From the NCBI RefSeq assembly GCF_014207705.1, contig NZ_JACHIU010000001.1, positions 1,488,001 through 1,552,000 on the forward strand: DNA of 64,000 bases, read 5' to 3'. The translations under genes and the position numbers were made by a program. Source of the DNA: Sphaerisporangium rubeum (GTDB lineage: Bacteria; Actinomycetota; Actinomycetes; Streptosporangiales; Streptosporangiaceae). This document shows positions 19,377 to 51,864 of the stretch, piece after piece. The first letter of the stretch is position 1. Each line of letters opens with the position of its first letter. The notes beneath the pieces are model-generated. The model worked only from the letters and a program-made list of their open reading frames with translations. It was not told the DNA's origin and did no database searches.

Positions 19377-20618
19377 ATGTCATCCCCCCGGCCGGTTCCT
19401 CCGGATAGCGCCGCGCACGCAGGTCGACGTCTGGCGTGGCTGGACGCGCTGCGCGGGGTCGGAGCGGTGGCGGTGCTGCTGGAGCACATGCTCTACCGGT
19501 TCCTGCCGGGGTTGCGGCCGTACTGGATGAACCTCGGCATCTACGGGGTCATGGTCTTCTTCCTGGTCAGCGGGTACGTCATCCCGGCCTCGCTGGAGAA
19601 CAAGGGGGACGTGCGCAGGTTCTGGCTGGGGAGACTGTTCCGGCTCTACCCCCTCTACCTGCTGGTGATCGTGATCGTGCTGCTTTCCACGCCGCTGGTG
19701 CCGGTGCGGCAGGGGGTGGGGGCCGATCCCGAGACCGTCGCGGCGCACGTCACCATGCTGCTCGACCTGGTGTGGACCCCGGGGATCGGCGAGACCATGT
19801 GGACGCTCTCCTACGAGATGGCGTTCTACCTGCTGATCACGGCCCTGTTCGTCGGCGGGTCGCACCGGCGCAGCGGTCTGTTCGCGGTGCTGTCCGCGGT
19901 GGCGGCGCTCGGGGTGGGCCTGCTGCTGGCGCGGCCGCTCACGGCGTACGTGGCGGCGGAGCTCTGGACGTTCGGGGTGATGGCCGCGGGGCTCGCGCTG
20001 GTGCTCGTGGGGAGAGGGTGGGTCCGCGCGGTGGGGGCCGTGGTCGTCGGCGCGCTGGCCGTCGTGCTGGTGCTGGTCGGGGGACGCATTCCCTGGCTCG
20101 GCCCGGCGATCCTGTCGGTGATGTTCACCGGCACGGTGCTGTACCGCTGGGAACGCGGGGAGATCTCGCATCTGTGGGCCGTCGCGGGGGTGGCGGTGCC
20201 GCTGGCCGCCACGCCGTTCTTCGCGGCGCGGGCCGGGTGGTGGGCCGATCCGCCGGTGTGGCTGGCCACCATGGCGCTGGTCGCGGCGACCTTCGCGCTC
20301 GGCATGGCGTTCCGGCGCCGGCGGGTGCCGCGCGCGCTGGTCTGGCTGGGGCTGGTCAGCTACTCGGTCTACCTGCTGCACCACCCTTTGATGAAGCTCT
20401 TCCTCGCCGTGTACGGCGACCCGCGCCGCGAGCCGCTCCTGCTGCAGGCGGCGCTCGCCGTGGCGTACATCACGGTGGTCCTCGGCCTGAGCTGGGTGAC
20501 CTACCGCCTGGTGGAGCGGCCCATGCAGACCCTCGGCCGCCGGCTCTCCCGCGCGCTGCCGGAGCCTCCTGTGCCGACGCGGGGCCGCGAGACGGTCTCG
20601 GCCAGTAACCTTGGCTGA
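19377..20618 (+). CDS. Acyltransferase 3 family membrane protein
   Basis: The 413-residue protein belongs to the OafA/YrhL-like acyltransferase 3 family. Near the start is LAWLDALRGVGAVAVLLEH, where the family has R/K-x10-H. FFLVSGYVI, YLLHHPLMKLF and RPMQTLGR are typical, with about ten membrane helices between. Such enzymes O-acylate exported polysaccharides, peptidoglycan or antibiotics; the substrate here is unknown. ATG 19377 is used because the preceding segment has no hydrophobic or conserved sequence. Confidence 0.9.
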   Translation: MSSPRPVPPDSAAHAGRRLAWLDALRGVGAVAVLLEHMLYRFLPGLRPYWMNLGIYGVMVFFLVSGYVIPASLENKGDVRRFWLGRLFRLYPLYLLVIVIVLLSTPLVPVRQGVGADPETVAAHVTMLLDLVWTPGIGETMWTLSYEMAFYLLITALFVGGSHRRSGLFAVLSAVAALGVGLLLARPLTAYVAAELWTFGVMAAGLALVLVGRGWVRAVGAVVVGALAVVLVLVGGRIPWLGPAILSVMFTGTVLYRWERGEISHLWAVAGVAVPLAATPFFAARAGWWADPPVWLATMALVAATFALGMAFRRRRVPRALVWLGLVSYSVYLLHHPLMKLFLAVYGDPRREPLLLQAALAVAYITVVLGLSWVTYRLVERPMQTLGRRLSRALPEPPVPTRGRETVSASNLG

Positions 20619-22744: not shown

Positions 22745-23545
22745 TCAGCGCCAGCCGCTCACCGGGTACGTCTCGCCTGCACCGAGTTCGCGGCCCCGCA
22801 GCAGCGTGCTCACCGTGACGACGTGGTAGCCCTTCTTCTTGAGCGACCGCAGGATGCCGGGCATCGCGGCGACCGTCTCCGGCCAGATGTCGTGCATCAG
22901 CACGACCTTGTCGCGCGCCGCGTCGCCGAGCACCCGCTTGGTGATGGCCTTGGTGTTCCGCAGCTCCCAGTCGCGGGCCGTGCGGTTCCACAGGATCTGC
23001 GCGAGGCCGAGCTCGGCGGCGATGCCGGACACCCGTTCGTCGGTGTCGCCGTACGGGGGCCGCATCAGGGTGGGACGCCGTCCGGTGGCCCGCTCGATGG
23101 AGTCCTGCGCGCGTACCAGCTCGTCGCGGATCAGGCCGTCGTACAGGGACGTCAGGTGCGGGTGGTCGTAGGTGTGGTTGCCGATCTCGTGGCCCGCGCG
23201 TGCGATGGCGCGCGCCGTGCCGGGGTACCGATCGGCCTGCCGGCCCATCAGGAAGAACGTGACCTTGGTCTTGTTCTTGCTCAGCGTCTTGAGGAGCTTG
23301 CCGGTGTGGCGTCCGGGGCCGTCGTCGAAGGTCAGCGCGATGCACTTCACCTTGGCGCAGTCGACCGTCCGGGCCTTGGCCGCCGTCGTGACCGTGCCGG
23401 TTCTCGCCGCGGTGCCGGTCTTCGCGGCCGCGCCGGTCGTCCCGGCCTCGCCGCTCCTCCCTGCCGGGTCGGCCGCGGCGAGCGGCGACGCCGCCACCAC
23501 CGCCGTCAGCGTCACCGTCAGGATCGGGAGCCACCGCCGCATCAT
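22745..23545 (-). CDS. Secreted polysaccharide deacetylase (NodB family, CE4)
   Basis: The 266-residue protein has an N-terminal signal peptide (MMRRWLPILTVTLTAVVAAS) and a short Ala/Thr/Gly linker, then a NodB domain. Its motifs are complete: TFDDGP with the catalytic and metal Asp, HTYDH metal site, RPPYG, and LMHD. CE4 enzymes remove N-acetyl groups from peptidoglycan, chitin or xylan; peptidoglycan or a surface glycan is likely here. ATG 23545 follows GGAAGGAG. It is divergent from the glycopolymer block, separated by 245 bp with no other gene. Confidence 0.93.
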   Translation of the reverse strand: MMRRWLPILTVTLTAVVAASPLAAADPAGRSGEAGTTGAAAKTGTAARTGTVTTAAKARTVDCAKVKCIALTFDDGPGRHTGKLLKTLSKNKTKVTFFLMGRQADRYPGTARAIARAGHEIGNHTYDHPHLTSLYDGLIRDELVRAQDSIERATGRRPTLMRPPYGDTDERVSGIAAELGLAQILWNRTARDWELRNTKAITKRVLGDAARDKVVLMHDIWPETVAAMPGILRSLKKKGYHVVTVSTLLRGRELGAGETYPVSGWR

Positions 23546-23790: not shown

Positions 23791-24735
23791 GTGGCCATGG
23801 GGTCCTACTCGCTCGATGACGTCCGTGCGGCCCGCGCACGCGGAGCCTCGTGGTGGACGGCGCACCTCGTCGACCCGGTCGCCGGCCGGCTCGCGCTGCT
23901 CGCGGGGAACCACACCCGCGTCGCGCCGGCCGGTCTGACCCGCGCGTCACCGCTCCTCGGCCTCGGCGCGGCGGCGTGCTTCGCGACGGGCCGGTTCGCG
24001 GCCGGCGCGCTGCTGTTCCACCTGAGCGTCGCGGCCGTCCGCGCGGCCGGCGTGCTGGCCGGGCTGCGGGGCACGGTGCCGCCGGCCGGCCGGTGGCAGG
24101 ACCACATGCGCGACCGCGTCCGGGTGGTCTGCTGCGCGTGCGGTCTGGCGTACGGCCTGTACGCGGCCACGGGACGGCCGGTGTACGTGCTGCTCGGCGT
24201 CGTCGTCGCCGTACTGGACCTGGTCCGGCACGTCGACACGCCACGGCTGAGACCGCCGCGCCGGCCGGCCGAGCCGGGGCTCGCGGACGCGCCGGACGAC
24301 CGGCCGCCGTCGAGGCCCACGGCGCGGCCCGAGTTCGTGTCGCCGTTCGGCCCGATGATCCAGATGACCGAGCCGCGGGCCGCCGCCGGTCCGGCCCGTG
24401 CCGCGCCGGGGTTGTCCCACGCTCCGCCGGAGCACCCCGCGGCCCCGCCTCCGGTGCTCGCGTGGCGGTCGCACGGCCCTCTCGGCCCGCGCGTGGGTGA
24501 CGGAGAGTTCCACGCGGCCGTGTTCGTGCTGGCCCCGCTCGCCGGGCCCGGCGCGTCGCTCGTGGTCGCGGCGGTGGCGTGCGCGTCGCTCGTGCTCGGC
24601 GAGATCGTCCTGATCCACCGTACGCGGCGGGTCTCGCGCGCGGTGGCGGCCCGGGCCGGTGGCCCGGCGCCTGCTTCCGCCGCGGGCCCGCGGCTGCGGA
24701 CCGACCCGTTCCGTACAGAGGTGGAGTTCCGATGA
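23791..24735 (+). CDS. CDP-alcohol phosphotransferase-like membrane protein with degenerate active site
   Basis: The 314-residue product has an N-terminal domain like CDP-alcohol phosphatidyltransferases, with several membrane helices, a Pro-rich middle and two more C-terminal helices. The active-site motif D-x2-D-G-x2-A-R-x8-G-x3-D-x3-D maps exactly onto residues 83-108, but D83, D86 and R91 are V, A and G, while G87, A90, G100, D104 and D108 remain. It is therefore probably inactive as a phosphotransferase. The stop overlaps the sulfotransferase start (ATGA). GTG 23791 or ATG 23797 may be the start. Confidence 0.7.
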   Translation: MAMGSYSLDDVRAARARGASWWTAHLVDPVAGRLALLAGNHTRVAPAGLTRASPLLGLGAAACFATGRFAAGALLFHLSVAAVRAAGVLAGLRGTVPPAGRWQDHMRDRVRVVCCACGLAYGLYAATGRPVYVLLGVVVAVLDLVRHVDTPRLRPPRRPAEPGLADAPDDRPPSRPTARPEFVSPFGPMIQMTEPRAAAGPARAAPGLSHAPPEHPAAPPPVLAWRSHGPLGPRVGDGEFHAAVFVLAPLAGPGASLVVAAVACASLVLGEIVLIHRTRRVSRAVAARAGGPAPASAAGPRLRTDPFRTEVEFR

Positions 24736-25775
24736 GTACCGACCGGCCGATCTTCGTCGTCGGCTGTCCGCGTTCCGGCACCACGATGCTGCAACTCATG
24801 CTGCACGCGCACCGGCGTGTCGCGGTCCCGCCTGAGACGCGGTTCGTGCTGTCCGTCTACTACCACCGCCGCCTCCACGGCGACATGCGTGACGTGGAGC
24901 GGCGCCGCGCGCTCGCCGAGTGGATCGCCGGTGCCCGCGCCACCAGGTTCCGCGAGCTCGGGCTGGACCGGTCCGAATACGTGCGCCGGGCCACCGAGGG
25001 GCCCGGCTCGCTCGGCTCGGTGGTCGGGCAGGCGTTCCGCATGTACGCCGAGCGGTTCGGCAAGGCGCGGTGGGGTGACAAACGGCCGTGCTACGTCAAG
25101 TACGTGGACGTGCTGCTGCGGATGTTCCCCGACGCGCAGTTCGTGCACCTGGTGCGGGACGGCCGTGACTGCGTCGCGTCCCTCAAGGAGATGCCGTGGT
25201 ACAGCTTGGACATCAACCACGCCATCGCCAACTGGGCCGAGTCCGTCGACCAGGGCCGCCGGCTCGCGAGGTCGCTGCCTGCGGGGAGTTACCACGAGCT
25301 GCGCTACGAGGACCTCACCGCCGACCCCGAGGGGGAGCTGACCAGGCTGTGCGCGTTCCTCGGCGAGGAGTTCGACCCGTCGATGTGCGAGCCGCAGCTG
25401 GTGGCCCCGGTCGCCGTGCCGAGGCGCAAGGTGTGGCACCGCAACACCCGCAACGAGGTGTCGCAGGCCCGCGTGGGGAGCTGGGCCGACCGGCTGGAGC
25501 CCTGGGAGGCGTCGTTGTGCGAGCACGTTCTCGCGCGGCGGCTGCGCGACCACGGCTACGAGCTCAGCGGCGCGCCGTCGCCGTCGGCGAGGCAACTGCT
25601 CACCTACCGCAGGACGGCGACCCACCGTGCGCTGTCCCGCTGGGAACGCCAGGCCCGCGACCAGGTCAACCGCCGCCGTGAGCCGGGTCCGCTCGCCGCC
25701 ATGCTGACCTCGGGCCAGCTCGCTCTGGCGAGCGTGCCGCGTCAGCGCACCGCGCAGGACCTCATCAGGGGGTGA
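24732..25775 (+). CDS. Sulfotransferase (PAPS-dependent)
   Basis: The 347-residue protein has the 5'-phosphosulfate loop VGCPRSGTTMLQL near the N-terminus and the 3'-phosphate motif FVHLVRDGRDCVASLKEMP, typical of the sulfotransferase_3/GlcNAc-sulfotransferase-like family. It should transfer sulfate from PAPS to a carbohydrate or lipid. ATG 24732 overlaps the preceding stop. Convergent, with 2 bp between stops, to the GT4 gene, so this block is two opposed operons. The neighbours suggest that a surface glycan is the acceptor. Confidence 0.9.
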   Translation: MSTDRPIFVVGCPRSGTTMLQLMLHAHRRVAVPPETRFVLSVYYHRRLHGDMRDVERRRALAEWIAGARATRFRELGLDRSEYVRRATEGPGSLGSVVGQAFRMYAERFGKARWGDKRPCYVKYVDVLLRMFPDAQFVHLVRDGRDCVASLKEMPWYSLDINHAIANWAESVDQGRRLARSLPAGSYHELRYEDLTADPEGELTRLCAFLGEEFDPSMCEPQLVAPVAVPRRKVWHRNTRNEVSQARVGSWADRLEPWEASLCEHVLARRLRDHGYELSGAPSPSARQLLTYRRTATHRALSRWERQARDQVNRRREPGPLAAMLTSGQLALASVPRQRTAQDLIRG

Positions 25776-25777
25776 GC

Positions 25778-26842
25778 TCAGCGGCGGACGGCGGCGAACA
25801 GGTCCTCCCAGCGGTCCAGCACCGGGTCGAGACGGAAGGCCGCGGCGTGCGCGCGGGCCGCGGCGCCGAGCCTGCGGCGGCGGGCCGGGTCGGCCATCAG
25901 CGCGGCGAGCGCGCCGGTGAAGGCGTCGAGGTCGGCGTGCGGCACCAGCACACCTGTCGTGCCGTCCAGCACGAGGGAACGCACCCCGCCTGACACGTCG
26001 AACGCGACGGCCGGCATGCCGTGCGCCGCCGCCTCCGCCACCACCGGCGGCATACCCTCGTGCTCGCTGGTCAGGCCGAGCACGGCGGCGTTGCGGAACT
26101 CCCCGCCGAGTTCCGCCGCGCCGACCCGGCCGCGGAACACCACGCGGCCGGCGACACCCGCCGCCGCGGCGCAGGCACGCAGGCGCGGCAGCTCCGGCCC
26201 GTCGCCGACCAGGTGGAGCTCCCACCCGGCGCGGGCCCGCACCGCGCGTGCGAACGCCGTGATGAGCCGGTCGAACCGCTTGCCGGGGACGAGCCTGCCG
26301 ACCCCGAGCACCCGGCGCGTGTCCAGGTACGACGCCGAGTCGGGCCAGGCGCGCAGCGGCGCCGGCAGGTCCACGGCGTTCGGCAGCAGCGCCTCCTCGG
26401 CGAACCGCCACGCGTCGTCCGCGCTCGGGAACACGGCCCGGTCGAGACCGCCGTAGTGCCGCCGCACGTCCGCGAGGTCCCCGCCGTCCCTGGCCTGCGC
26501 GAACGACCCGTGGTACTGGCCGACGACCCGCGTGCCGTCCGGCGCCTTCCCCGCCAGCAGGCCGGCGACGCGGGGACACGTCAGCACCACGACCCCGCCG
26601 GCGGCCGCGCGCAGTGCTTGTTCCCCCCACCGGCGCGCCACGCCGCGCCACGGGACGCGCCATCGCGGCACCCGCCGTCCGTACAGCGGACGCTCCACGT
26701 ACCGGAACGGCGTCGCGGTGCGCCGCAGCCCCGCGATCCCCACGGTGTGACCCCGGACCGCGAGCCCCTGCGCGAGTGTGTGCGTCACCTGCTGGATCCC
26801 GCCGAGCGCGTCGGCGTCCAGGCAGACGAACACGACCGTCAT
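25778..26842 (-). CDS. Glycosyltransferase family 4
   Basis: The 354-residue protein is a GT-B glycosyltransferase. It has a Gly-rich acceptor-side loop LGGIQQVTHTLAQGLAVRGH, a donor-side segment VLGVGRLVPGKRFDRLI, and the EX7E-type motif SEHEGMPPVVAEAAAHGMP. It should add a sugar from a nucleotide donor to a growing glycan on the cytosolic side. ATG 26842 overlaps the upstream gene's stop by 4 bases. Confidence 0.93.
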   Translation of the reverse strand: MTVVFVCLDADALGGIQQVTHTLAQGLAVRGHTVGIAGLRRTATPFRYVERPLYGRRVPRWRVPWRGVARRWGEQALRAAAGGVVVLTCPRVAGLLAGKAPDGTRVVGQYHGSFAQARDGGDLADVRRHYGGLDRAVFPSADDAWRFAEEALLPNAVDLPAPLRAWPDSASYLDTRRVLGVGRLVPGKRFDRLITAFARAVRARAGWELHLVGDGPELPRLRACAAAAGVAGRVVFRGRVGAAELGGEFRNAAVLGLTSEHEGMPPVVAEAAAHGMPAVAFDVSGGVRSLVLDGTTGVLVPHADLDAFTGALAALMADPARRRRLGAAARAHAAAFRLDPVLDRWEDLFAAVRR

Positions 26843-29340
26843 CGGCGGGGGTGGAAGAACGCGGCGACAACGCGGCGCGCGGCGTCACCTGTCTCGTCGG
26901 CGCAGTACAGCGCACGGAAGTCGGCGTACCTGGCGGCGTGCCGTTCCGTCACCTCGTCGAGGTCGGCCAGTGCCGTGACGAGTTCCTTCGGCGTCGTCAG
27001 CACGGGCCCCGGCAGGGGGTCGCACCGGTCGCCGGCCGGTCCGCCGGGGGAGTAGATCAGGATGGGCCGGCCGGTGCAGGCGTAGTCGCGCACCAGCGGC
27101 ATGTGGTCTCCCGCCAGCGCGTCCGAGGCGAGGATCAGGTCGTTGACCTCGGGTCCCGCGGTGCGCACGAGGGGCCGCACGCGGCGGGGGATCCGGTACC
27201 GGCCCTCGGCGTGGACCACGATCACCCACTGACCGGCGAGCGTCTCGGCGACGACCTCCAGGCCGTCGCCTGCCGTCGTCCCCGGATGTGGCGCGTACAG
27301 CAGGACGCGCCGGTCAGGGGGGATCTCCAGGGCCGCACGCACCCGGTGCGCCGCGCCGGGGTCGCCGGTGACGAGCACGTCGCACTTGGGGGAGCCGAAC
27401 GGCAGCACCGTGCCGGTGAACTCGGTGGCCGGCACGAAGACCCGCGTGAACTCCGGCCCGGGGGACACCAGCGCGTCCCACCGAGCCACCGCGGCCCTGC
27501 GCTCGGCCGCGTCACCCCCGGGTCCGGCCTCGGGGAACCCGTCCCAGGTCTGCAGGTACCGTGTGCGCGCCGGCTTGGGGAACCCGGCAGGCAGGCCCCG
27601 GTCGTCCACCCAGTACCCGGCCCTGGCGAGCAGCCACACGTACCGCCAGCTCATGCGCCGCACCAGCGGCACGTCGGCGGGGAAGCCGGACGGGTCGCCG
27701 CGCACCGACCAGCACACCCGCAACGGCAGGCCGCGCCGGCGGATCTCCTCGTGGACGTACCTCGGGTTGCCGGTGTACGCGGCGCCACCGGCCGACTCGA
27801 ACAGCGCGAGACCGGGCCTGGGCCGCACCACGCGGATCAGCCGCCGGTACACCCACTCCTTGACGCGCGCGCCGGTCAGCACCCGCCGCGGCCTGGTACG
27901 CGGCCGGGCCACCCCCGCGCCGCGCCACCGCACCCGCAGGAAGGCGCTGTCCCCGACGGGCCCCACGGTCACCTGGTGGCCCCCCGTGGTGAGCACGAGC
28001 GGGGGAGTGGCGGGGTCGACGAGCAGCCGGTCGCTGGTGTGGTGACCGTCGGCCCGGGTGAACCGGATGAGCGCGTCGGTGCGTCCGCCGCGTCCCGGCG
28101 GCGTCCCCGCGAGGTCGATCTCGGCCCGCACCAGGTACCCGCCGTCCGGCTGCCTGCGGGGTGCCAGCCGGACCCGTGTCCCCCGCACCACCAGGTCGGC
28201 CACGGTCCGGCCGCGCCGCAGCACCGCGAACGGGTCGTACGTCCTGATCGTCAGGGACACGACCGTCCCCGACGCGGTGATCTCGGTGACCTCGTGCCGG
28301 ATCCGGGACGCCGAGAACGGCAGCTCGGCCAGCCCGAGCCCCGTGATGTCCAGCCCCGGATGGGCCCGGGTCCCCCAGTAGGTGCGGCCGTCCACCCGCA
28401 GCGCGTGCCGCGGGGCCGCGCGCGGCGTGGTCAGCGACCGCGCCGCGACCACCAGGTCCGCCACGCGGCCGGCCCGCGCGAGGTGGCAGCACACCGCGAC
28501 CATGGGGTCCACCGTGGCCTCGACGCCGGGCTCCAGCTCCGAAAGGTACGGCCGCAGCGCCGCCGCGAACTCCTTGACCCACACGGCGTCGCGCCGTGGC
28601 AGCCCGTCCAGGTGGCCCCGCAGGTCGTGCACGAGGAACCGCCGCTGCCGCGCCGCCACCAGGTCCGGTGCACCGCCGTCGCGCAGCCGCGCGTCCGCCG
28701 TCCGCGCCGCGCGCACCCGCCGTCGTACGTCGTCGAGGTCGCCGTCCCCGGTCCGCGGCGGCGCCAGGTGCACCGGCCACGGCACCACCGCGAACCGCCG
28801 CGCGTCCCGGAACACCTGCGCGGTGAACACGACGTCCTCCTCGTGGACGTCCTCGGGGAACCGCACCCCGTGTTCGCGCAGGAACCCGGTCCGGTACAGC
28901 TTGTTGGTCACCGCCGCGTCCAGGAACATCCGCGGCTCGTCCCTGACCCCGGCGACGACCCGTCGCGGCGCGTAGAACCCGGCACGCGGCCCCGCCGCCG
29001 TCCCCCGCGGCCACGTGACCGCTCCGGTCGCGAAGTCACCGCCGGTGCGCTCCACCTCGGCGAGCAGGCTGCCGCAGGCGTGCCGTGTCAGCACCACCCC
29101 GTCGTCCAGCACCATCACGAACGGCGCACGGACCGCGTCCAGCCCCTCGTTGCGCGCCGCTCCGCGTCCCCCCGCCTCCTGTCCCGCCACGTACCGCATC
29201 CGCTGGTCGCCGCCGGCGGCCCCACCGGCGGACCCGACGACGACCAGCTCGACGTTCCCCAGCGACTGGCCGAGCACCGACGCCACAACCCGGGGATCGG
29301 GGTCGCCACAGGCGAGCACAACGCTGACATCCGGCCGCAT
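26839..29340 (-). CDS. Bifunctional GT2 / CDP-glycerol glycerophosphotransferase-like protein
   Basis: The 833-residue protein has an N-terminal GT2-like domain (about 1-230), a beta-rich middle (about 330-480) and a C-terminal TagF-like CDP-glycerol:poly(glycerophosphate) glycerophosphotransferase domain (about 490-830; LFESAGGAAYTGNPRYVHEEI, LLYAPHPGTT, GRPILIYSPGG). TagF-like enzymes polymerise glycerol-phosphate chains of teichoic acids. The GT2 nucleotide site is odd: residues 33-40 are VVVGSAGG where DDGS is expected, and the DXD position reads LDDG (78-81). In the TagF part, AGDHMPLVRDYA replaces the usual DYSS segment. ATG 29340 has GGGGGGCGG before it. Confidence 0.82.
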   Translation of the reverse strand: MRPDVSVVLACGDPDPRVVASVLGQSLGNVELVVVGSAGGAAGGDQRMRYVAGQEAGGRGAARNEGLDAVRAPFVMVLDDGVVLTRHACGSLLAEVERTGGDFATGAVTWPRGTAAGPRAGFYAPRRVVAGVRDEPRMFLDAAVTNKLYRTGFLREHGVRFPEDVHEEDVVFTAQVFRDARRFAVVPWPVHLAPPRTGDGDLDDVRRRVRAARTADARLRDGGAPDLVAARQRRFLVHDLRGHLDGLPRRDAVWVKEFAAALRPYLSELEPGVEATVDPMVAVCCHLARAGRVADLVVAARSLTTPRAAPRHALRVDGRTYWGTRAHPGLDITGLGLAELPFSASRIRHEVTEITASGTVVSLTIRTYDPFAVLRRGRTVADLVVRGTRVRLAPRRQPDGGYLVRAEIDLAGTPPGRGGRTDALIRFTRADGHHTSDRLLVDPATPPLVLTTGGHQVTVGPVGDSAFLRVRWRGAGVARPRTRPRRVLTGARVKEWVYRRLIRVVRPRPGLALFESAGGAAYTGNPRYVHEEIRRRGLPLRVCWSVRGDPSGFPADVPLVRRMSWRYVWLLARAGYWVDDRGLPAGFPKPARTRYLQTWDGFPEAGPGGDAAERRAAVARWDALVSPGPEFTRVFVPATEFTGTVLPFGSPKCDVLVTGDPGAAHRVRAALEIPPDRRVLLYAPHPGTTAGDGLEVVAETLAGQWVIVVHAEGRYRIPRRVRPLVRTAGPEVNDLILASDALAGDHMPLVRDYACTGRPILIYSPGGPAGDRCDPLPGPVLTTPKELVTALADLDEVTERHAARYADFRALYCADETGDAARRVVAAFFHPRR

Positions 29341-29457: not shown

Positions 29458-30402
29458 CTACCGCCGGGTCAACAGGCGGCGCAGGAACCAGATCAGCAGG
29501 ACCGCCGCGGTCACGGCCCCGACGGCCGGCGCGAGACGCTTGAGCAGCGGCACACCGGCGATCCGCAGCAGGTCGAGGGCCTCCTCCTCTGCGGACAGGC
29601 TGGTGCGCGCCGTGCCGGCCGGGTGCGCGTCGCGAGCGCTGATCTCCTCACGCTGCGCCGGGTCGGGGACGGCGGACAGATGACGCACGGCGGAGCCGTT
29701 CCCGGCGGGGACCGGCGGCAACGACTGCGCGGGCTCACTCAAGGGGGTCGCGAGAGGCTCCGCGGGCTCGCTCACCGGTGCCGGGACGGGCCGCGCCGGT
29801 GCCGCCTCGGGCTCGCTCAGCGGAGTCGTGACGGACTCCGCCGAGGCCACGGACTCGGCGAGCTCGCCGAGCGGGGCCGGCTCGTTGAAGGGGGTCGTGC
29901 CGGGCCCGGCGCTCGCGCCTTCGGCGATCTCGGCGTCGGTCGGGGGCTGGTGCGCCTCACGCAGCAGGGCCGCGAGGTTGGCGGCGAAGCGGTCGATGAG
30001 CTTGGCGCCGACCTCGGCCATCACGCCGCGGCCGAACTGCGCGGGCCGGCCGGTGACGTTGAAGGACGTGCGGACGCTCACCTTGGTCCAGCCGCCTTCA
30101 CCGGACAGGGCCGCCTCGACGTCCGCCGCGGCCGTGCCGGTGCCGCGCGCCTCCTTGCCCGAGGCGCTGATGCCGATCGTGTGGCCGTCCTTGTCGACGG
30201 ACGTGAACGACGCCTGGCCCCGGTAGGTCACCGTGATCGGCCCGACCTTGACCTTGAGCCGGCCGGTGAACGCCTCCCCCTCCACGGTGTCGAGCGTCGC
30301 TCCTGGCAGGCACGGCGCCACCCGCTCCACGTCAAGGAGCACGGCCCACGCCTGCTCGACGGGTACGGGGACCGTGAAGTCATGCTCGAACCGCATCGCC
30401 AT
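29458..30402 (-). CDS. coxG: CoxG-like SRPBCC protein with C-terminal membrane anchor
   Basis: The 314-residue product begins with a CoxG/SRPBCC domain (FEHDFTVPVPVEQAWAVLLDVERVAPCLPGA; about residues 1-150). A Pro/Glu-rich linker of about 120 residues follows, then a C-terminal helix (AVGAVTAAVLLIWFLRRLL). In carboxydotrophs CoxG recruits CO dehydrogenase to the membrane; a similar anchoring role is likely here. It lies 235 bp downstream of the coxSLM-like operon and may be co-transcribed or use its own promoter; the gap holds an inverted repeat CCAATA/TATTGG at 30518-30550. Confidence 0.88.
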   Translation of the reverse strand: MAMRFEHDFTVPVPVEQAWAVLLDVERVAPCLPGATLDTVEGEAFTGRLKVKVGPITVTYRGQASFTSVDKDGHTIGISASGKEARGTGTAAADVEAALSGEGGWTKVSVRTSFNVTGRPAQFGRGVMAEVGAKLIDRFAANLAALLREAHQPPTDAEIAEGASAGPGTTPFNEPAPLGELAESVASAESVTTPLSEPEAAPARPVPAPVSEPAEPLATPLSEPAQSLPPVPAGNGSAVRHLSAVPDPAQREEISARDAHPAGTARTSLSAEEEALDLLRIAGVPLLKRLAPAVGAVTAAVLLIWFLRRLLTRR

Positions 30403-30637
30403 CAGATTCTCGGCAGGCGCGCCACCCTGGGGGGAGGCGGAGAGTGCCTACCTTCCTCCTTTCACCAGTTCGTCCGCACGACCAGCCGTATGCCGCGATA
30501 CTCCGATACCGCACTACCCAATAACCGAAATCGCTATTGCGAAGTATTGGCCGACCTGCGGATCCTCACCACACCCTACGGCGCGTCACCGCTCCCGCGC
30601 GGGCCGGTGGCGCAGGTCCACCGGCCCGTCACGGACA

Positions 30638-31516
30638 TCACCCCTGGACGGCCAGCGCCGCCGCCGACAGCGCGCGGCGGGTCAGCACCCTGGCGAGGTG
30701 GCTTCGGTAGCCGGGGGAGGCGTGCAGGTCGGACGGCGGTGAGGTGCCGTCGGCCGCGAGACCGGCCGCGTCGCGCAGGCCGGAGCCGTCCGGCCCGGCC
30801 CCGGGTACGGCCGCCTCGACGGCGGTGGCGCGGACCGGGACGGAGCCCATGTTGGTCAGGCCCACGCGGGCCTGCTCGACGCGCCGTTCGCCGCCGGAAC
30901 CCGAGACGCGGACCGCGGCGGCGACGCCGACGATGGCCCAGGCCTGCGCCGTACGGTGGAACTTCTCGTAGTGGTACCCCCAGCCGGGGCCGAGCTTCGG
31001 CACGCGCACCGCGGTCAGGATCTCGCCGGGTTCCATGGCGGTCTCCAGGTAGTCGGCGAAGAAGTCGCCTGCCGCGACCACCCGCTCGCCGGACGCCGAG
31101 CGCAGCACCAGCTCCATGTCCAGGGCCACCGCCACGGCCGGCAGGTCACCGGCCGGGTCGGCGTGCGCCAGGGAGCCGCCGAACGTGCCGCGGTGCCGCA
31201 CCGCCGGGTCGGCGACGGTCGCCGTGGCGAGCGCGACCAGCGGACACTCGGCGTTGACGATCGCCGAGCGCACCACCTCGTCGTGCGTGGTCCCGGCGCC
31301 GATGAGCACGTGGCCGTCCTCGTCCCTGATGCCGCGCAGCTCGCCGAGGCGGCCGACGTCCACCAGGACCGAGGGGTACGACAGCCGCAGCCGCAGCAGC
31401 GGAAGCAGCGACTGGCCGCCGGACAGGACCTTGGCCTCGTCCCCGGCCCCGGCGAGCACGCCGAGCGCATCCTCCAGGGTCGCGGGCCGTACGTAGTCGA
31501 ACGTCGCCGGGATCAC
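30638..31516 (-). CDS. coxM: FAD-binding subunit of molybdenum hydroxylase (CoxM-like)
   Basis: The 292-residue medium subunit has the FAD motifs AGAGDEAKVLSGGQSLLPLLRLR (two stretches with the conserved GGQS) and a TVADPAVRHRGTFGGSLAHADPAGDLPA-type segment, and CO_deh_flav_C domain. It passes electrons from the iron-sulfur subunit to FAD and on to an acceptor. GTG 31516 overlaps the coxL stop (GTGA). Part of a coxS-coxL-coxM operon. Confidence 0.95.
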   Translation of the reverse strand: MIPATFDYVRPATLEDALGVLAGAGDEAKVLSGGQSLLPLLRLRLSYPSVLVDVGRLGELRGIRDEDGHVLIGAGTTHDEVVRSAIVNAECPLVALATATVADPAVRHRGTFGGSLAHADPAGDLPAVAVALDMELVLRSASGERVVAAGDFFADYLETAMEPGEILTAVRVPKLGPGWGYHYEKFHRTAQAWAIVGVAAAVRVSGSGGERRVEQARVGLTNMGSVPVRATAVEAAVPGAGPDGSGLRDAAGLAADGTSPPSDLHASPGYRSHLARVLTRRALSAAALAVQG

Positions 31517-33918
31517 GCGGCACCTCCGTCGATCGCGCGCCACACCCGTTCGGGGGTGCAGGGCATCGGCACGTCGTGCACCCCGTACGGCCGCAGCGCG
31601 TCCACGATGGCGTTGACCACCGCGGGGGTCGAGGCGATCGTGCCGGCCTCGCCGACGCCTTTGACGCCGAGCGGGTTGGTCGTGGCCGGCGTCTCGGTGC
31701 GGTCGGTGACGAAGGACGGCAGGTCGGCGGCCGACGGCAGCAGGTAGTCGGCCATGGTCGTGGTGAGCAGGTTGCCTTCGGAGTCGTACACGGCCTCCTC
31801 GAACAGCGCCTGCGCGATGCCCTGCGCCAGCCCGCCGTGCACCTGGCCCTCCACGATCATCGGGTTGACGACCTTGCCGACGTCGTCCACCGCGACGTAC
31901 GACCGGATCGTGACGGCCCCGGTCTCGGTGTCCACCTCGGTGGCGCACAGGTGTGTGCCGTGCGGGAACGAGAAGTTGTCCGGGTCGAACGTCACCGAGG
32001 AGTCCAGACTCGGCTCCACGCCGTCCGGCAGGTCGTGCGCCGCGAACGTCGCCAGCGCGACCTCCTGGATCGTCTTGCCGGCGTCGGTGCCGCGCACCCG
32101 GAACGTGCCGCCGTCGAACTCGACGTCTTCGGGTGACGCCTCCAGCATGTGCGCCGCGATCCGCCTGGCCTTGTCCTTCACCTTGTCGCAGGCCCGCAGC
32201 ACCGCCACACCGCCGACCACCAGCGAGCGCGAGCCGTAGGTGTCCATGCCCTTGTGGGACACCGACGTGTCGCCGTGCACCACCGAGACGTCCTCGAACG
32301 GCACGCCGAGCGCGTCGGCGACGATCTGGCTCCACGCCGTCTCATGGCCCTGGCCGTGCGGGCTGGACCCGGTGACCACCTCGACCTTGCCGGTCGGCAA
32401 CATGCGCACGTCCGCGTGCTCCCAGCCGCCGGCGCCGTAGCTCAGCGAGCCGAGCACCCGGCTCGGCGCGAGGCCGCACATCTCGGTGAACGTCGACACC
32501 CCGATGCCGAGCCGCACGGGGTCGCCGCGTTCGGCGCGCTCGGCCTGCTCGGCGCGCAGCTTGTCGTACCCGAACAGCGCGAGCGCCTTGTCGGTGGCCG
32601 CCTCGTAGTTCCCCGAGTCGTACGTCAGGCCCGCGATGGTGGCGTAGGGGAACTCCTCGTGCCTGATCCAGTTGCGCCGCCGCACCTCGATCGGGTCGAG
32701 GCCGACCTCGTGCGCCAACTCGTCCATCACGCGCTCGATGGCGTACGTCGCCTCGGGCCGTCCCGCGCCACGGTAGGCGTCGGTCGGCATCTTGGTGGTG
32801 AACACGCCGGTGCACGTGAAGTCGTAGGCGTCCATCTTGTAGATGCCGTTGTACATGAACGCGCCGAGCAGCGGCACACCCGGCGTGACCAGCATCAGGT
32901 ACGCACCCATGTCGGCCAGCAGGTCGACCTTCAGGCCCCGGATGCGTCCGTCCTGGTCGGCGGCGAGCGAGATGCGCTGGAGCTGGTCGCGGCCGTGGTG
33001 TACGGTCAGGTTGCCTTCCGAGCGCGACTCGGTCCACTTGACCGGCTTGCCGAGCCGGCGCGTGAGCAGCAGCGCGATCACCTCCTCGGCGGTCACCTGG
33101 AGCTTGGACCCGAAGCCGCCGCCGACGTCCGGCGCGATCACCCGCAGCTTGTGCTCGGGGATGCCGGTGACCTGCGCCAGCATGATCCGCAGGATGTGCG
33201 GGATCTGCGTCGCCGAGTACAGCGTGAACGAGTCGCCGTCGGTCTGCGCGACCACCGCGCGCGGCTCCATCGCCGAGGGGATGAGCCGCTGCTGCACGTA
33301 CGTGCGCTCGACCACCACCGGCGCGTCCCGGAACGCCGCGTCGGCGTCCCCGGCGGCGAACTTCCACACGAACGACCGGTTGCCGTGCTCGTGCACCTTC
33401 GGCGATCCCTCGGTGAGCGCCTCGGTCATGTCCAGCACCGGCGGCAGCGGGTCGTAGTCGACCTCGATCGCCTCCAGCGCGTCCGCCGCGCGGTAGCGGT
33501 CGGTCGCGACGACGCACGCGACCGCCTCACCGGCGTACCTGACCTCGTCCACGGCCATCGGCGGGTGGTCGGGGATCACGATGTCCTCGGTGACCGGCCA
33601 CGCGCACGGCAGGCTGCCCTGCTCCTCGGCGAGGTCCTTGCCGCTGAACGCCGCCACCACCCCCGGCAGGCCGCGCGCACCCGACACGTCCACCCGGGTC
33701 ACCCTGGCGTGCGCCATCGGGCTGCGCAGGAACGCCACGTACAGCATGCCGGGGAGCTGGATGTTGTCGGTCCAGCGGCTGCGGCCGGTGACCAGGCGCG
33801 CGTCCTCCTTGCGCCGCCGCGCCGCGCCGACCTCCGTACGGCCCGGTGCGGGCTCGCTCAGCATGTCGTTCTCGGCGATGGTGCGCGCCACCATGCCGGC
33901 GTCGAGTTCCTCGGTCAT
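31513..33918 (-). CDS. coxL: Molybdopterin-binding large subunit, form II CoxL-like
   Basis: The 801-residue subunit carries the molybdopterin cytosine dinucleotide domains (PDVGGGFGSKL, HGQGHETAWSQI, GVKGVGEAGTIAS). The active-site loop reads AYRGAGR, the form II signature, not the AYxCSFR of proven aerobic CO dehydrogenase. The operon order S-L-M is also that of form II. The substrate is therefore open: CO oxidation is possible but another aldehyde or heterocycle is at least as likely. Start ATG 33918 overlaps the coxS stop. Confidence 0.95.
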   Translation of the reverse strand: MTEELDAGMVARTIAENDMLSEPAPGRTEVGAARRRKEDARLVTGRSRWTDNIQLPGMLYVAFLRSPMAHARVTRVDVSGARGLPGVVAAFSGKDLAEEQGSLPCAWPVTEDIVIPDHPPMAVDEVRYAGEAVACVVATDRYRAADALEAIEVDYDPLPPVLDMTEALTEGSPKVHEHGNRSFVWKFAAGDADAAFRDAPVVVERTYVQQRLIPSAMEPRAVVAQTDGDSFTLYSATQIPHILRIMLAQVTGIPEHKLRVIAPDVGGGFGSKLQVTAEEVIALLLTRRLGKPVKWTESRSEGNLTVHHGRDQLQRISLAADQDGRIRGLKVDLLADMGAYLMLVTPGVPLLGAFMYNGIYKMDAYDFTCTGVFTTKMPTDAYRGAGRPEATYAIERVMDELAHEVGLDPIEVRRRNWIRHEEFPYATIAGLTYDSGNYEAATDKALALFGYDKLRAEQAERAERGDPVRLGIGVSTFTEMCGLAPSRVLGSLSYGAGGWEHADVRMLPTGKVEVVTGSSPHGQGHETAWSQIVADALGVPFEDVSVVHGDTSVSHKGMDTYGSRSLVVGGVAVLRACDKVKDKARRIAAHMLEASPEDVEFDGGTFRVRGTDAGKTIQEVALATFAAHDLPDGVEPSLDSSVTFDPDNFSFPHGTHLCATEVDTETGAVTIRSYVAVDDVGKVVNPMIVEGQVHGGLAQGIAQALFEEAVYDSEGNLLTTTMADYLLPSAADLPSFVTDRTETPATTNPLGVKGVGEAGTIASTPAVVNAIVDALRPYGVHDVPMPCTPERVWRAIDGGAA

Positions 33919-34415
33919 CGGGCCCCCTCGGCGGAGGCCTGCTCCTGGCCGTTCATCTCACGCGCGCCGCGCCGGACGGCCCGGACGATGTTGGTGTAGC
34001 CGGTGCACCGGCACAGGTTGCCTTCGAGGCCGTGGCGGACGGACTCCTCGGACGGGTCGGGGTCGTCCTTCAGCAGGTCGATCGCGGCCATGATCATGCC
34101 GGGGGTGCAGTAGCCGCACTGCAGCGCGTGCTCCTCGTGGAAGGCGCGCTGCATGGGGTGCCAGCCGCCGCCGTCCCCCGACAGGCCTTCCACGGTGAGG
34201 ATGTCCGACTCGTCGGCCTGCACCGCGAGCACCGAGCAGCTCTTGGCGCTGCGGCCGTCCAGCATGACCGTGCAGGCGCCGCAGTTGCCGGTGTCACAGC
34301 CGATCGGTGTGCCGGTCAGTCCGAGGCGATCTCGCAGCAGGTGGACGAGCAGCAGCCGGGGTTCGACCTCCTCCTCGTACGCGATTCCGTCGACGGTGAC
34401 GGTGATACGGGTCAT
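33915..34415 (-). CDS. coxS: 2Fe-2S small subunit of molybdenum hydroxylase (CoxS-like)
   Basis: The 166-residue protein holds two [2Fe-2S] centres: the plant-ferredoxin type ([16 protein letters not shown] and a further Cys) and the C-terminal CxxC...CxC type ([22 protein letters not shown]). It relays electrons from the molybdenum site to FAD. It is the first gene of the operon. The 217 bp upstream (34416-34632) contain less GC-rich DNA that should hold the promoter, but no clear operator is seen. Confidence 0.96.
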
Positions 34416-45749: not shown

Positions 45750-47255
45750 AATGCCGGGAAGTTAGGCGGCGAGGGTGAGTGTCAAGGGGCTGCGGATGGT
45801 GATGGTGTAGCTGGCGGTTTTGGGTTTGGGGTCGGGGTGTGTTTGTCGGAAGGGGTAGCGGACTTTGGGACGGTTTTTGACGCGTGGGCTGGTCCTTGGG
45901 CGTCGGGTTGCGGGCATGGGCCGGTTGGTGAGCATGGTGAGGGTGTAGGCCCAGTCCTGGGGGGCGTGGCGGGGCTGGGTGCCGTGTGCGGTGATGATGG
46001 TGTCGCGGGTGGTGTGCAGGGTGGTGGTGAAGCTGATCTGGTCGGGGTCCAGGCCGGTGTCCAGGGCGGCGTGGCAGGCCAGGCGGCGTAGCAGGTGGTG
46101 GGTGAGCAGCAGGGCGTAGAACTCCTGGACGATGCCGGGGACGGTGCGTGATCGCAGGGGTCGCAGTGATCCTTTGTGGATGGCTTTGAGGCCGTATAAC
46201 GCGGTTTCGATCTCCCAGCGCTGGTGGTAGCAGGCCACAAGGTCGGCGGCGGGGTGGGTGCGGTGGTCCAGCAGGGTGGTCATGAGCTTGTAGGTCTGGT
46301 GGCGTGTGGTGCCGTCGGCGAGGGTCACGGTGATGGTGGCCTCGATGATGCGCACCATCTCGCGCAGGTGCCGTTCGTGCTTGTGGCCGCGGCGCATGGC
46401 CAGGTAGGACCCATCGGGGAGGTGTGCGATCACGGTGGGGGCCAAGGTAGCGGTGGCGCGCCACAAAAGGTGGGCCCCGGTCTGGCGGGCCGACCGCCAC
46501 AGCCCAAGACCGATGAACCGGCGATCGGCAAGCAGCAGCATCCCCGGCGCAAGAGCGCCCAGCATCCGTTCCACCAATGCCGACTCACTCGTGCGGCAAT
46601 GCCCGAACACCGCGTCCATGACGGCCCGGGTCCCGCACTCGATGGTGAGCGCGAACGCCATCTGCGGCGCACCCTCGCGCCCGCTGCCGTGCACCGGAGC
46701 CCCGAACTCCTTACGCACCGCCGCCTCATCGGCCAGATCCAGCGTGGAACCGTCCCAGGCCACCAGCCGCAACCCCCGCCACCACACCCCCGGCGTCGCA
46801 ACCGGGGCAACCGGACCGCGCAGCCGATCGAACAACATCCGTACCGGCGCCTCACCCAGCCGTGCTCTGGCCTGACGCAACGCCGCCGCCGACGGCACCC
46901 CCACCCCCCGCACCGAACAACACAACGCCCGCCACACCCCTGCATACCCCCGCTCCGGGAACAAGGTCATCGCCAAGACGAAAAACACCACCACCCGTGC
47001 AGGCAACACCCGCACCCGCCGCTCACCTCGCCGGCACTCCACAAGCACCTCATCCACCAACTCCACCGGCACCCCGTCACTCAGCACCCCAAGATGCGCC
47101 GGAGCCCACACACACCCACCCACCGGCATGACACACTCACACACACGGAGCTCCTGCCTACGAACGAGATCTTGGTCGATCAACGTTCTAGCAGGAGCTC
47201 CATCCTCATCTCAGCGCTATTGACAACCAACCCCCCGCCTTAACTTCCCGGCATT
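45750..47255 (-). mobile_element. IS4-family insertion sequence, complete
   Basis: The element is 1506 bp with identical 15-base terminal inverted repeats, AATGCCGGGAAGTTA at the left (45750-45764) and its complement at the right (47241-47255), followed on both sides by GGCGG-like bases. One transposase gene fills it. The left repeat contains the transposase stop. The flanks are 13-bp direct repeats. It is inserted in the intergenic region after sucD. Confidence 0.93.
45762..47183 (-). CDS. IS4-family transposase
   Basis: The 473-residue transposase has an N-terminal IS4-type domain, then the DDE catalytic residues. These are Asp in LVAWDGSTLDLAD, Asp in LLLADRRFIGLG and Glu in the signature YHQRWEIETALYGLK. 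That signature fits exactly the IS4 Y-x2-R-x3-E-x6-K pattern. The reading frame is open along the whole length, so the element looks able to move. Start ATG 47183, or the ATG 18 codons later (MPVGGCVW), is uncertain. Confidence 0.95.
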   Translation of the reverse strand: MIDQDLVRRQELRVCECVMPVGGCVWAPAHLGVLSDGVPVELVDEVLVECRRGERRVRVLPARVVVFFVLAMTLFPERGYAGVWRALCCSVRGVGVPSAAALRQARARLGEAPVRMLFDRLRGPVAPVATPGVWWRGLRLVAWDGSTLDLADEAAVRKEFGAPVHGSGREGAPQMAFALTIECGTRAVMDAVFGHCRTSESALVERMLGALAPGMLLLADRRFIGLGLWRSARQTGAHLLWRATATLAPTVIAHLPDGSYLAMRRGHKHERHLREMVRIIEATITVTLADGTTRHQTYKLMTTLLDHRTHPAADLVACYHQRWEIETALYGLKAIHKGSLRPLRSRTVPGIVQEFYALLLTHHLLRRLACHAALDTGLDPDQISFTTTLHTTRDTIITAHGTQPRHAPQDWAYTLTMLTNRPMPATRRPRTSPRVKNRPKVRYPFRQTHPDPKPKTASYTITIRSPLTLTLAA

Positions 47256-50333: not shown

Positions 50334-51833
50334 TCAGCGCTGCTGGGTCAGCAGGCCGGGGCGGTACGGCAGGAGGCCGTATTCGACGCCGTTGGAGCTC
50401 GGGCTGCGGCCCTGGTAGAGGAGCTGCAGCTGGCAGGGGTTGACGGTGAAGGTCTGGTCGGCGCTGGTGCGGATCAGTTCACCGTGGCTGATGTCGTCGG
50501 TCCAGGTGGCGCCGCTGTTGGCCTTGCCGGCGAACGGGTTGCTCTCGGTGGCGGCGTTCGCGGTCCAGGTGCCGCCGAGGCTGGTGGCGGTGAAGGAGCG
50601 GAAGTAGCGGCCTCGGGAGCCGATGGCCTCGACCAGCATGAGGTAGCGCTGCTGGCCCTGGAGCTTGTAGACCTGGACGGCCTCGAACAGGTTGTTCGTG
50701 GAGTCGCTCATGATGGTGGTGTAGTTGGAGCCGAAGTTGCCGGGGAAGTTGCCGATCGGCATGCTGGCCCGGTAGATCTTGCCGTTGTCACCGGCGAAGA
50801 ACAGGTACATGTTCTGGTCGTCGGCGATGAGGGTCTGGTCGATGGGGCCGGTGCCGGAGCCGGAGATGCTGCCGGTGAACAGGGGCTGTGCCGACGACCA
50901 GCCGTTGGGGTTGGTGGGGTTGGTGGAGGTCTTGTAGGAGAAGGCGGTGCCTCCCCACTGGTAGGCCAGCACCCAGATGTTCTTCGGCGCGAAGTAGAAC
51001 AGCGTCGGCGCGACGGTGCCCTGGTTCATGCCGGTCTGGGTGGCCGAGGCCATCTCCGACCAGTTGGTGAAGGTGCTGAAGTTCATCGAGCCCCAGCTGG
51101 AGCCGAAGTCGTGCGTGGTCGCGTACACCAGGTGCTTGCCCTGGTACGGCGCCACGGTGAAGTCCTTCAGCGACACCCAGCCCGACTTCGGCTGCGCGAG
51201 CGCACCGGTCGAGGTCCACCGGTACGACGACGGCAGCTGGCAGGTGCCGGTCGGCGTCGGGGTCGGCGTGGGGGTGGGGGTCGGCGTCGGCGTGGGAGTC
51301 GGCGTCGGGGTGGGGTTCGGGGTCGGGGTGATCGTCGGCGTGGGGCTCGGGGTGCCGGGGGTGCCGGTGCAGGCGACGCCGTTCAGGGAGAAGGACGTCG
51401 GCACGGAGGCGCTGCCGCTGGACGAGCCGTTGAAGCCGAAGTTGGTGCTGCCGCCGGAGGGGATGCTCCCGTTGTAGGAGACGTTGGTGGCGGTGACCGA
51501 CGAACCGGACTGGGTGTGGGTGGCGCTCCAGATGTTGGTGATCTGCTCACCGGAGCCGAAGGACCAGGTCAGCCGCCAGCCGTTGACCGCGTCACCGAGG
51601 TTGTTGATGGTGACGCTGGCGTTGAAGCCGCCGGGCCAGCTCGAACTGATGGTGTAGTCGACGCGGCAGGCGACGGCCGCCTGGGCCGGCTGGGTGGCCA
51701 GCAGGCCGCTTCCGGCGATCAGGAGCGGGATCGCGCCGATCGCGAGGCCGCGGCGGGAGACCGGGGGCCGTGCCGCGGGTGCGACGGCGGCGGCGGAGGG
51801 ACGCGGTGCGCGCGCTCTCCAGGGAAGACGCAT
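50334..51833 (-). CDS. Secreted CBM2-GH62 alpha-L-arabinofuranosidase
   Basis: The 499-residue protein has a Tat-type N-terminus ([18 protein letters not shown]), a family 2 carbohydrate-binding module (about residues 58-155; [27 protein letters not shown]), a Thr-Pro repeat linker (about 160-200) and a GH62 domain ([40 protein letters not shown]-like). GH62 enzymes remove arabinose side chains from arabinoxylan. ATG 51833 is preceded by AGGAGA; ATG 51848 is less likely. It is the second gene of the GH10-GH62 pair, 31 bp after the xylanase stop, and may be co-transcribed. The CBM2 binds cellulose or xylan. Confidence 0.93.
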
Positions 51834-51864
51834 CTGAATTCTCCTCATCGTGGGTCAGCCGCCG

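Follow-up and report, generated by a model that had tools for sequence, protein, structure and literature searches.

A conserved, probably sulfated surface-polymer module of the Streptosporangiaceae that appears catalytically disarmed in Sphaerisporangium rubeum

The window analysed here is a stretch of 64,000 nucleotides from Sphaerisporangium rubeum (Streptosporangiaceae; RefSeq assembly GCF_014207705.1, contig NZ_JACHIU010000001.1, positions 1,488,001 to 1,552,000 of the forward strand), and its subject is a block of four genes at window positions 23791–29340. Two forward-strand genes, encoding a homologue of cytidine diphosphate (CDP)-alcohol phosphotransferases and a sulfotransferase of the 3′-phosphoadenosine-5′-phosphosulfate (PAPS) type, face two reverse-strand genes, encoding a GT4 glycosyltransferase and a fusion of a GT2 domain with a TagF-like domain. 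A first-pass annotation had described the four genes as two coupled pairs whose convergent stops (sulfotransferase and GT4) lie 2 bp apart, and the list of open reading frames (ORFs) with their translations agreed with both points; an ATGA overlap is present at both junctions (CDP-alcohol gene/sulfotransferase and fusion/GT4). The block belongs to a gene set that is conserved in related species, and two of its four proteins in S. rubeum have lost residues of their catalytic centres. Its features are as follows.

23791–24735, + strand: CDP-alcohol phosphotransferase homologue, membrane protein of 314 aa; signature broken, predicted fold that of the family
24037–24063, + strand: codons of V83, A86 and G91 in the CDP-alcohol gene, replacing D1, D2 and R of DxxDGxxAR
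24732–25775, + strand: PAPS-type sulfotransferase, Sulfotransfer_3 (PF13469) by Pfam; 0/109 conserved positions lost
25778–26842, − strand: GT4 glycosyltransferase, Glycos_transf_1 by Pfam; 8/93 conserved positions changed
26839–29340, − strand: GT2 – beta linker – TagF (Glyphos_transf) fusion with a conserved linker between two degraded catalytic domains
27541–27543, − strand: codon of D600 in the fusion, where the WHG-motif histidine (TagF H444) is expected
27097–27102, − strand: codons of M747 and P748 in the fusion, where both DYSS serines are expected

Pfam matches identified the sulfotransferase (152 bits), the GT4 protein (100 bits) and the TagF part of the fusion (Glyphos_transf, PF04464, 138 bits against a cut-off of 22.1), together with a weak Glycos_transf_2 match near the N-terminus of the fusion (29 bits, compared with 110 bits in a genus relative). 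The product of the first gene gave no Pfam match with E ≤ 1 and one weak NCBIfam match (19.1 bits against a cut-off of 180); it is recognised as a CDP-alcohol transferase via its orthologues and its predicted fold.

Orthologues of the fusion were found in all 10 other genomes of the genus. Across the family, a search with the protein of a genus relative as the query (E ≤ 1e-120, two candidates scored per genome) recovered the fusion in 121 of 341 genomes, S. rubeum included, and in 22 of 68 genera. The full convergent arrangement, in which the CDP-alcohol transferase gene and one or more sulfotransferase genes face the GT4–TagF pair, was present in 115 of these 121 loci, and the convergent spacing had a median of 27 bp. 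Because the same arrangement recurs in 115 related loci, it is more than chance, and this neighbourhood comparison supports the earlier proposal that the four genes belong together. The link between a sulfotransferase and a TagF-like polymerase is thus conserved in about one third of the family. The six loci without a sulfotransferase comprised two contig ends (L188, L224), three distant homologues (L275–L277) and a genome from a second genus, G035 (locus L083), whose block retains the CDP-alcohol, GT4 and TagF genes. Genes in the relatives were called with a simple caller, and some of their starts are wrong. A further GT2/TagF-type gene lies in the stretch around the block in 93 of the 121 loci and a Stealth gene in 20. 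The gene for PseI (pseudaminic acid synthase) occurs in 50, always within 2.3 kb of the CDP-alcohol gene; L079 and L082 are among these and carry other pseudaminic acid genes too. PseI was found near the block in none of the 11 genus loci, and the PseI model exceeded its cut-off in none of the 11 genus genomes, with a weaker match in all of them.

The extent of change in S. rubeum was assessed at positions at least 97% conserved in the relatives, defined without the window and G035; the distant loci L275–L277 were left out, as were sequences below 60% of the length expected, and where a locus held several sulfotransferases, the copy most like that of the window was taken. The median losses of the other species in this comparison were 0–1 for the four genes. 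Substitution rates were estimated with codon models, one run of which used 10 taxa and four genes.

The change in the CDP-alcohol transferase homologue affects the core of the active site. The family signature, D1xxD2GxxAR...GxxxD3xxxD4, is shared by the CDP-alcohol phosphotransferases RsPIPS, AF2299 and AfDIPPS, and the partial text of the source describes the first three aspartates of phosphatidylinositol phosphate synthase as metal-binding and the fourth as the likely base (PMC4634129). This signature was intact in all 25 relatives first compared and, in a larger set, in 117 of 120 segments, the remaining three being the window and two incomplete segments (L218, L234). In S. rubeum, the region reads VRAAGVLAG...GRWQDHMRD, without D1, D2 and R, and of the three metal-binding aspartates only one is left. 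The window protein also lacks the PF01066 match given by its relatives and differs from the characterised enzymes in both respects, although its predicted fold resembles theirs. It has lost 27 of 64 conserved positions (28 of 70 when L218 and L234 are set aside), and 54 of 142 genus-invariant positions have changed, compared with 0%–4% in other species. The ratio of nonsynonymous to synonymous substitution rates (dN/dS) on the window branch was 0.23–0.27 against a background of 0.075–0.084 (twice the log-likelihood difference, 2ΔlnL, 15.5–16.5). In an AlphaFold2 (AF2) model with a mean predicted local distance difference test (pLDDT) score of 68.5, residues 21–90 and 111–140 scored 85–97 and the signature region 73–90, and a Foldseek comparison with AF2299 (4o6m) gave E = 8.6e-4, a probability of 1.00 and a TM-score of 0.38 over the query. 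The family fold is thus predicted to be retained. A second CDP-alcohol gene of the same type was sought in the genome, and none was found at E ≤ 1e-5.

The fusion has changed in a comparable way. Intact orthologues carry the motifs WHG, APTYR, RTHP and DYSS. In S. rubeum, QTWHG has become QTWDG, placing aspartate at the position of TagF H444; TYRD of APTYRD is gone, DYSS reads DHMP, and RTHP reads HAEG, with the arginine deleted. QTWHG was retained in 119 of the 121 loci, the exceptions being the window and G035. According to the partial text of PMC11666461, TagF probably uses the WHG histidine as its base, two active-site histidines are crucial in TagF and its relatives, and conserved active-site serines are also listed; the WHG motif is given there for TagF and TagF-like glycerol-phosphate polymerases. 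The window fusion aligns with Staphylococcus epidermidis TagF (PDB 3L7I and relatives; E = 3e-27), in which the residue corresponding to D600 is H444; PDB entry 3l7j has asparagine there. The fusion has lost 52 of 236 conserved positions, whereas the highest losses in other full-length fusions, apart from G035, were 19 (G004) and 15 (G001), and 67 of 375 genus-invariant positions have changed (1%–8% in other species). The Glyphos_transf profile matched all 10 genus relatives in one piece at 260–276 bits, whereas the copy in the S. rubeum block matched in two pieces of 93.8 and 46.2 bits. The AF2 model of the fusion was poor (mean pLDDT 62). The other TagF gene of the genome is common to the genus and intact, scoring 298 bits against 283–302 in its genus counterparts.

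Losses within the fusion were unevenly distributed. None of the 28 conserved positions of the linker was lost, compared with 52 of 208 in the catalytic domains (Fisher's exact test, p = 0.001). Identity of the linker to congeners (0.67, against 0.71 among congeners) corresponds to about the genus rate, whereas the GT2 domain (0.56 vs. 0.71) and the TagF domain (0.63 vs. 0.81) have diverged faster. Within the catalytic domains, polar positions were lost more often (37/107) than non-polar ones (15/101; p = 0.0013).

In S. rubeum, GuaA has changed at 9 of 442 genus-invariant positions (2%), CoxG at 3% and NodB at 7 of 99; a generally fast lineage was ruled out because GuaA and CoxG are not faster and the dN/dS of NodB and CoxG is not raised. 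The possibility that a gene from another family had taken over was likewise ruled out, as a tree of the sulfotransferase, GT4 and fusion places the window inside the genus beside G001 (support 82) and the flanks are syntenic. A family-wide pseudoenzyme state was dismissed because the relatives keep the motifs. Relative to the genus, deletions inside the genes numbered 11 in the fusion, six in the CDP-alcohol gene, one each in the GT4 and sulfotransferase genes and four in CoxG.

An independent loss was observed in G035, in which WHG has become GYG, the sulfotransferase is absent, and 28 of 93 conserved positions of GT4 and five of 64 in the CDP-alcohol transferase have changed. Losses in its fusion were found everywhere (13/28 positions in the linker and 64/208 in the catalytic domains).

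The sulfotransferase of S. rubeum, in contrast to its degraded neighbours, is under ordinary strong constraint. None of its conserved positions was lost, nine of 149 genus-invariant positions have changed (6%; G004 is higher, at 8%), and the PRSGTT loop, which has a role in the use of PAPS, is present. In GT4, 16 of 172 genus-invariant positions have changed in addition to the eight conserved positions listed above. No significant change in dN/dS on the window branch was found for the sulfotransferase, GT4, NodB or CoxG.

Homologues of this sulfotransferase were also scanned in named genomes (80 of 93 loci kept, with flanks of up to 7 kb). The first-pass annotation had taken the enzyme as a partner of TagF-like synthesis. 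Homologues lacking block partners in their flanks, a finding that it had named as refuting, do occur, in 66 of the 80 loci and mostly in Actinomadura, but they lie outside the block lineage. In a tree of 234 sulfotransferases, 61 from partner-less loci formed one clade and 173 of the block type another, the latter with low support (0.32). The other 14 scanned loci (Microbispora, Planotetraspora, Sphaerimonospora and one Streptosporangiaceae record) carry a CDP-alcohol gene and a Stealth gene alongside the sulfotransferase; the GT4–TagF pair is present in one of them and another GT2/TagF-type gene in 13. An OtsA-like ORF, named by eye, lies near the sulfotransferase homologue in 40 of the 80 loci. 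In Actinomadura loci such as L113 and L130, homologues of 51%–60% identity are convergent with this ORF, and the neighbourhood is stable; our guess for their substrate would be a trehalose-type compound.

What the intact module makes can be approached from the domain order of its polymerase. The partial text of PMC5974469 describes TagF-like bifunctional capsule polymerases, to which the intact orthologues are similar in joining GT2 to a full-length Glyphos_transf domain. There, makers of glycosyl-polyol-phosphate polymers have the order TagF-like/GT-B, and CslB, in which a GT-A fold precedes a GT-B-like TagF domain, makes poly(oligosaccharide phosphate). The orthologues share the order of CslB but carry the WHG motif of the polyol-phosphate enzymes, and a glycosylated polyol-phosphate polymer would be our guess for the product of the intact fusion. 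Unlike the polymerases described there, the present fusion comes from actinobacteria and is linked with genes for a sulfotransferase and a CDP-alcohol transferase; in the window, it has also lost the motifs. The earlier proposal of TagF-like polymer synthesis thus fits the intact orthologues, which carry the WHG motif, but not the S. rubeum enzymes, which have lost catalytic residues that their relatives keep. In the 11 genus genomes, the model for the enzyme that makes CDP-glycerol (TIGR01518) never exceeded its cut-off; 10 of them gave weaker matches. APS (adenosine-5′-phosphosulfate) kinase was found in all 11, and a supply of PAPS is therefore plausible.

Sulfation of the block polymer is suggested by gene linkage. 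No direct precedent for a sulfated teichoic acid was found in the literature searched, and bacterial sulfated polysaccharides have so far been called exclusive to cyanobacteria in the partial text of PMC13390465. The same source proposes a sulfated sporangium polysaccharide for the wps-1 cluster of Actinoplanes missouriensis, for which chemical proof is lacking. Both cases concern an actinomycete and the polysaccharide cluster of A. missouriensis, a sporangium-forming species, likewise contains sulfotransferases; wps-1 differs in its Wzx/Wzy pathway, and the terms TagF and CDP are absent from the main text of that article.

Taken together, our results point to a conserved module for a probably sulfated surface polymer that is catalytically disarmed in S. 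rubeum, where the sulfotransferase serves something else; we assign this reading a probability of roughly 0.72. The module would be an envelope-polymer set of the Streptosporangiaceae in which a bifunctional GT2–TagF polymerase and GT4 face a CDP-alcohol transferase and a PAPS sulfotransferase, and in the relatives it probably serves to make a teichoic-acid-like surface glycan with phosphodiester links and to sulfate it. In S. rubeum, the CDP-alcohol transferase and the fusion lack residues of the catalytic centre yet remain open, in-frame proteins. The four genes are thus unlikely to make the polymer there, and it would no longer be produced by these enzymes. Because the sulfotransferase is under strong constraint beside broken partners, it probably acts on another acceptor, which may be a lipid, a sugar or something that the remaining TagF locus makes. 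As judged from sequence, the surprising part is this apparently intact sulfotransferase next to two partners that look catalytically broken.

Several observations weigh against this interpretation. D3 and D4 of the CDP-alcohol signature are still present, and the alignment behind the AF2 model contained 14 relatives, which favours the family fold. A histidine equivalent to H584 may remain in the HAEG segment of the fusion. Cps7A, a glycerol-phosphate transferase, has tyrosine at the TagF H444 position (PMC11666461, partial text), and loss of H444 alone is therefore no proof of inactivity. The DxD region of GT2 is variable already in several genus relatives. The flanking acyltransferase has changed at 21 of 171 genus-invariant positions in S. 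rubeum, and the comparison rests on one genome of this lineage. On the window branch, the fusion shows no rise in dN/dS (0.076 vs. 0.107; 2ΔlnL 2.7), which counts against its free decay, although this test is weak given the length of the branch and the probable saturation of synonymous sites.

The first-pass annotation had all four S. rubeum genes making an active sulfated glycerophosphate wall polymer. Gene content, synteny and the APS kinase of all 11 genus genomes fit this model; with catalytic residues lost in two of the four enzymes and TIGR01518 below its cut-off in the same 11 genomes, we regard it as very improbable. We also consider it rather unlikely that, even in the relatives, the sulfotransferase has nothing to do with the polymer and acts on a small molecule or lipid in connection with the CDP-alcohol transferase (e.g., an inositol- or polyol-phosphate product). 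This would suit the 13 scanned loci that pair the two genes without GT4–TagF and the OtsA-like neighbours in other genera, as well as the best NCBIfam model of the intact CDP-alcohol protein, archaetidylinositol phosphate synthase, which scores below its cut-off. However, all 14 loci with this pair carry a Stealth gene and all but one another GT2/TagF-type gene, and in the sole block locus that has the CDP-alcohol gene without a sulfotransferase, that of G035, TagF and GT4 are degraded.

The persistence of the two dead genes can be explained in two ways. Plain decay may be under way in a dispensable module, the first gene of each pair being a relic whose frame is kept because the next gene depends on it for its ribosome-binding site and overlapping start. 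The roughly threefold rise in dN/dS of the CDP-alcohol gene, the deletions without insertions in the fusion, the ATGA overlaps, the recurrence in G035 and the genome size of S. rubeum, the smallest of the 11 in the genus (7.5 Mb), are consistent with this view, which is quite possible though short of an even chance; the fully conserved linker, the lack of any frameshift or stop and the unscathed sulfotransferase are not. Alternatively, both proteins might be retained by selection as pseudoenzymes with scaffolding or regulatory roles, e.g., as membrane anchors for the sulfotransferase or GT4. This possibility, which we hold tentatively, answers why the genes persist and is compatible with the disarmed-module interpretation. 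The frames are open despite the 11 and six internal losses, and dN/dS = 1 on the window branch was rejected (2ΔlnL 35–43 for the CDP-alcohol gene and 276 for the fusion), although a value below 1 averaged over a long branch covers the time before the loss. Simulated neutral drift to an equal amount of change left 1.5%–12.5% of CDP-alcohol genes and 1.5%–18% of fusions free of stops (200 runs per setting), but open frames were perhaps kept just for translation of the next gene. The linker, untouched here and eroded in G035, and the polar bias of the catalytic-domain losses also favour retention. On the other hand, losses in the CDP-alcohol protein show no polar bias (15/32 vs. 13/38; p = 0.33), five of its six deletions fall in a variable stretch, the control CoxG also has four, and no scaffold role is known. 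The evidence leans towards kept pseudoenzymes, yet we keep the two explanations near even.

In 115 of the 121 loci a sulfotransferase accompanies a TagF-like polymerase, which makes the question of sulfated polysaccharides in actinomycetes testable in many strains, and S. rubeum, in which the polymer enzymes look naturally knocked out and the sulfotransferase intact, would separate both functions. A bolder version, in which many Streptosporangiaceae, often with a PseI gene nearby, possess a GT2–TagF-built pathway for a sulfated teichoic-acid-like polymer and the S. rubeum CDP-alcohol transferase and polymerase are selected pseudoenzymes serving a repurposed, active sulfotransferase, seems to us improbable as a whole.

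The flanks of the window block are syntenic in the relatives. The gene at 22745 (Polysacc_deac_1, 138 bits) and that at 19377 (Acyl_transf_3, 94 bits) had been put forward as a secreted deacetylase next to the polymer genes and an acyltransferase near them; they look rather like general flanking synteny, in a conserved stretch with guaA, and were ruled out as members of the block. On the other side (29458–34415) lie CoxG, assigned by Pfam, and an operon that by eye resembles CO dehydrogenase (CoxM/L/S), a flank kept beside the block in many relatives. Rfam gave no match within the window at gathering thresholds. Farther away, an IS4-like transposase ORF (45762–47183, labelled by eye) borders a dip in GC content (0.63–0.64 at 46–50 kb), and a secreted protein at 50334–51848 has the look of a CBM2 plus a GH62-type domain, again by eye.

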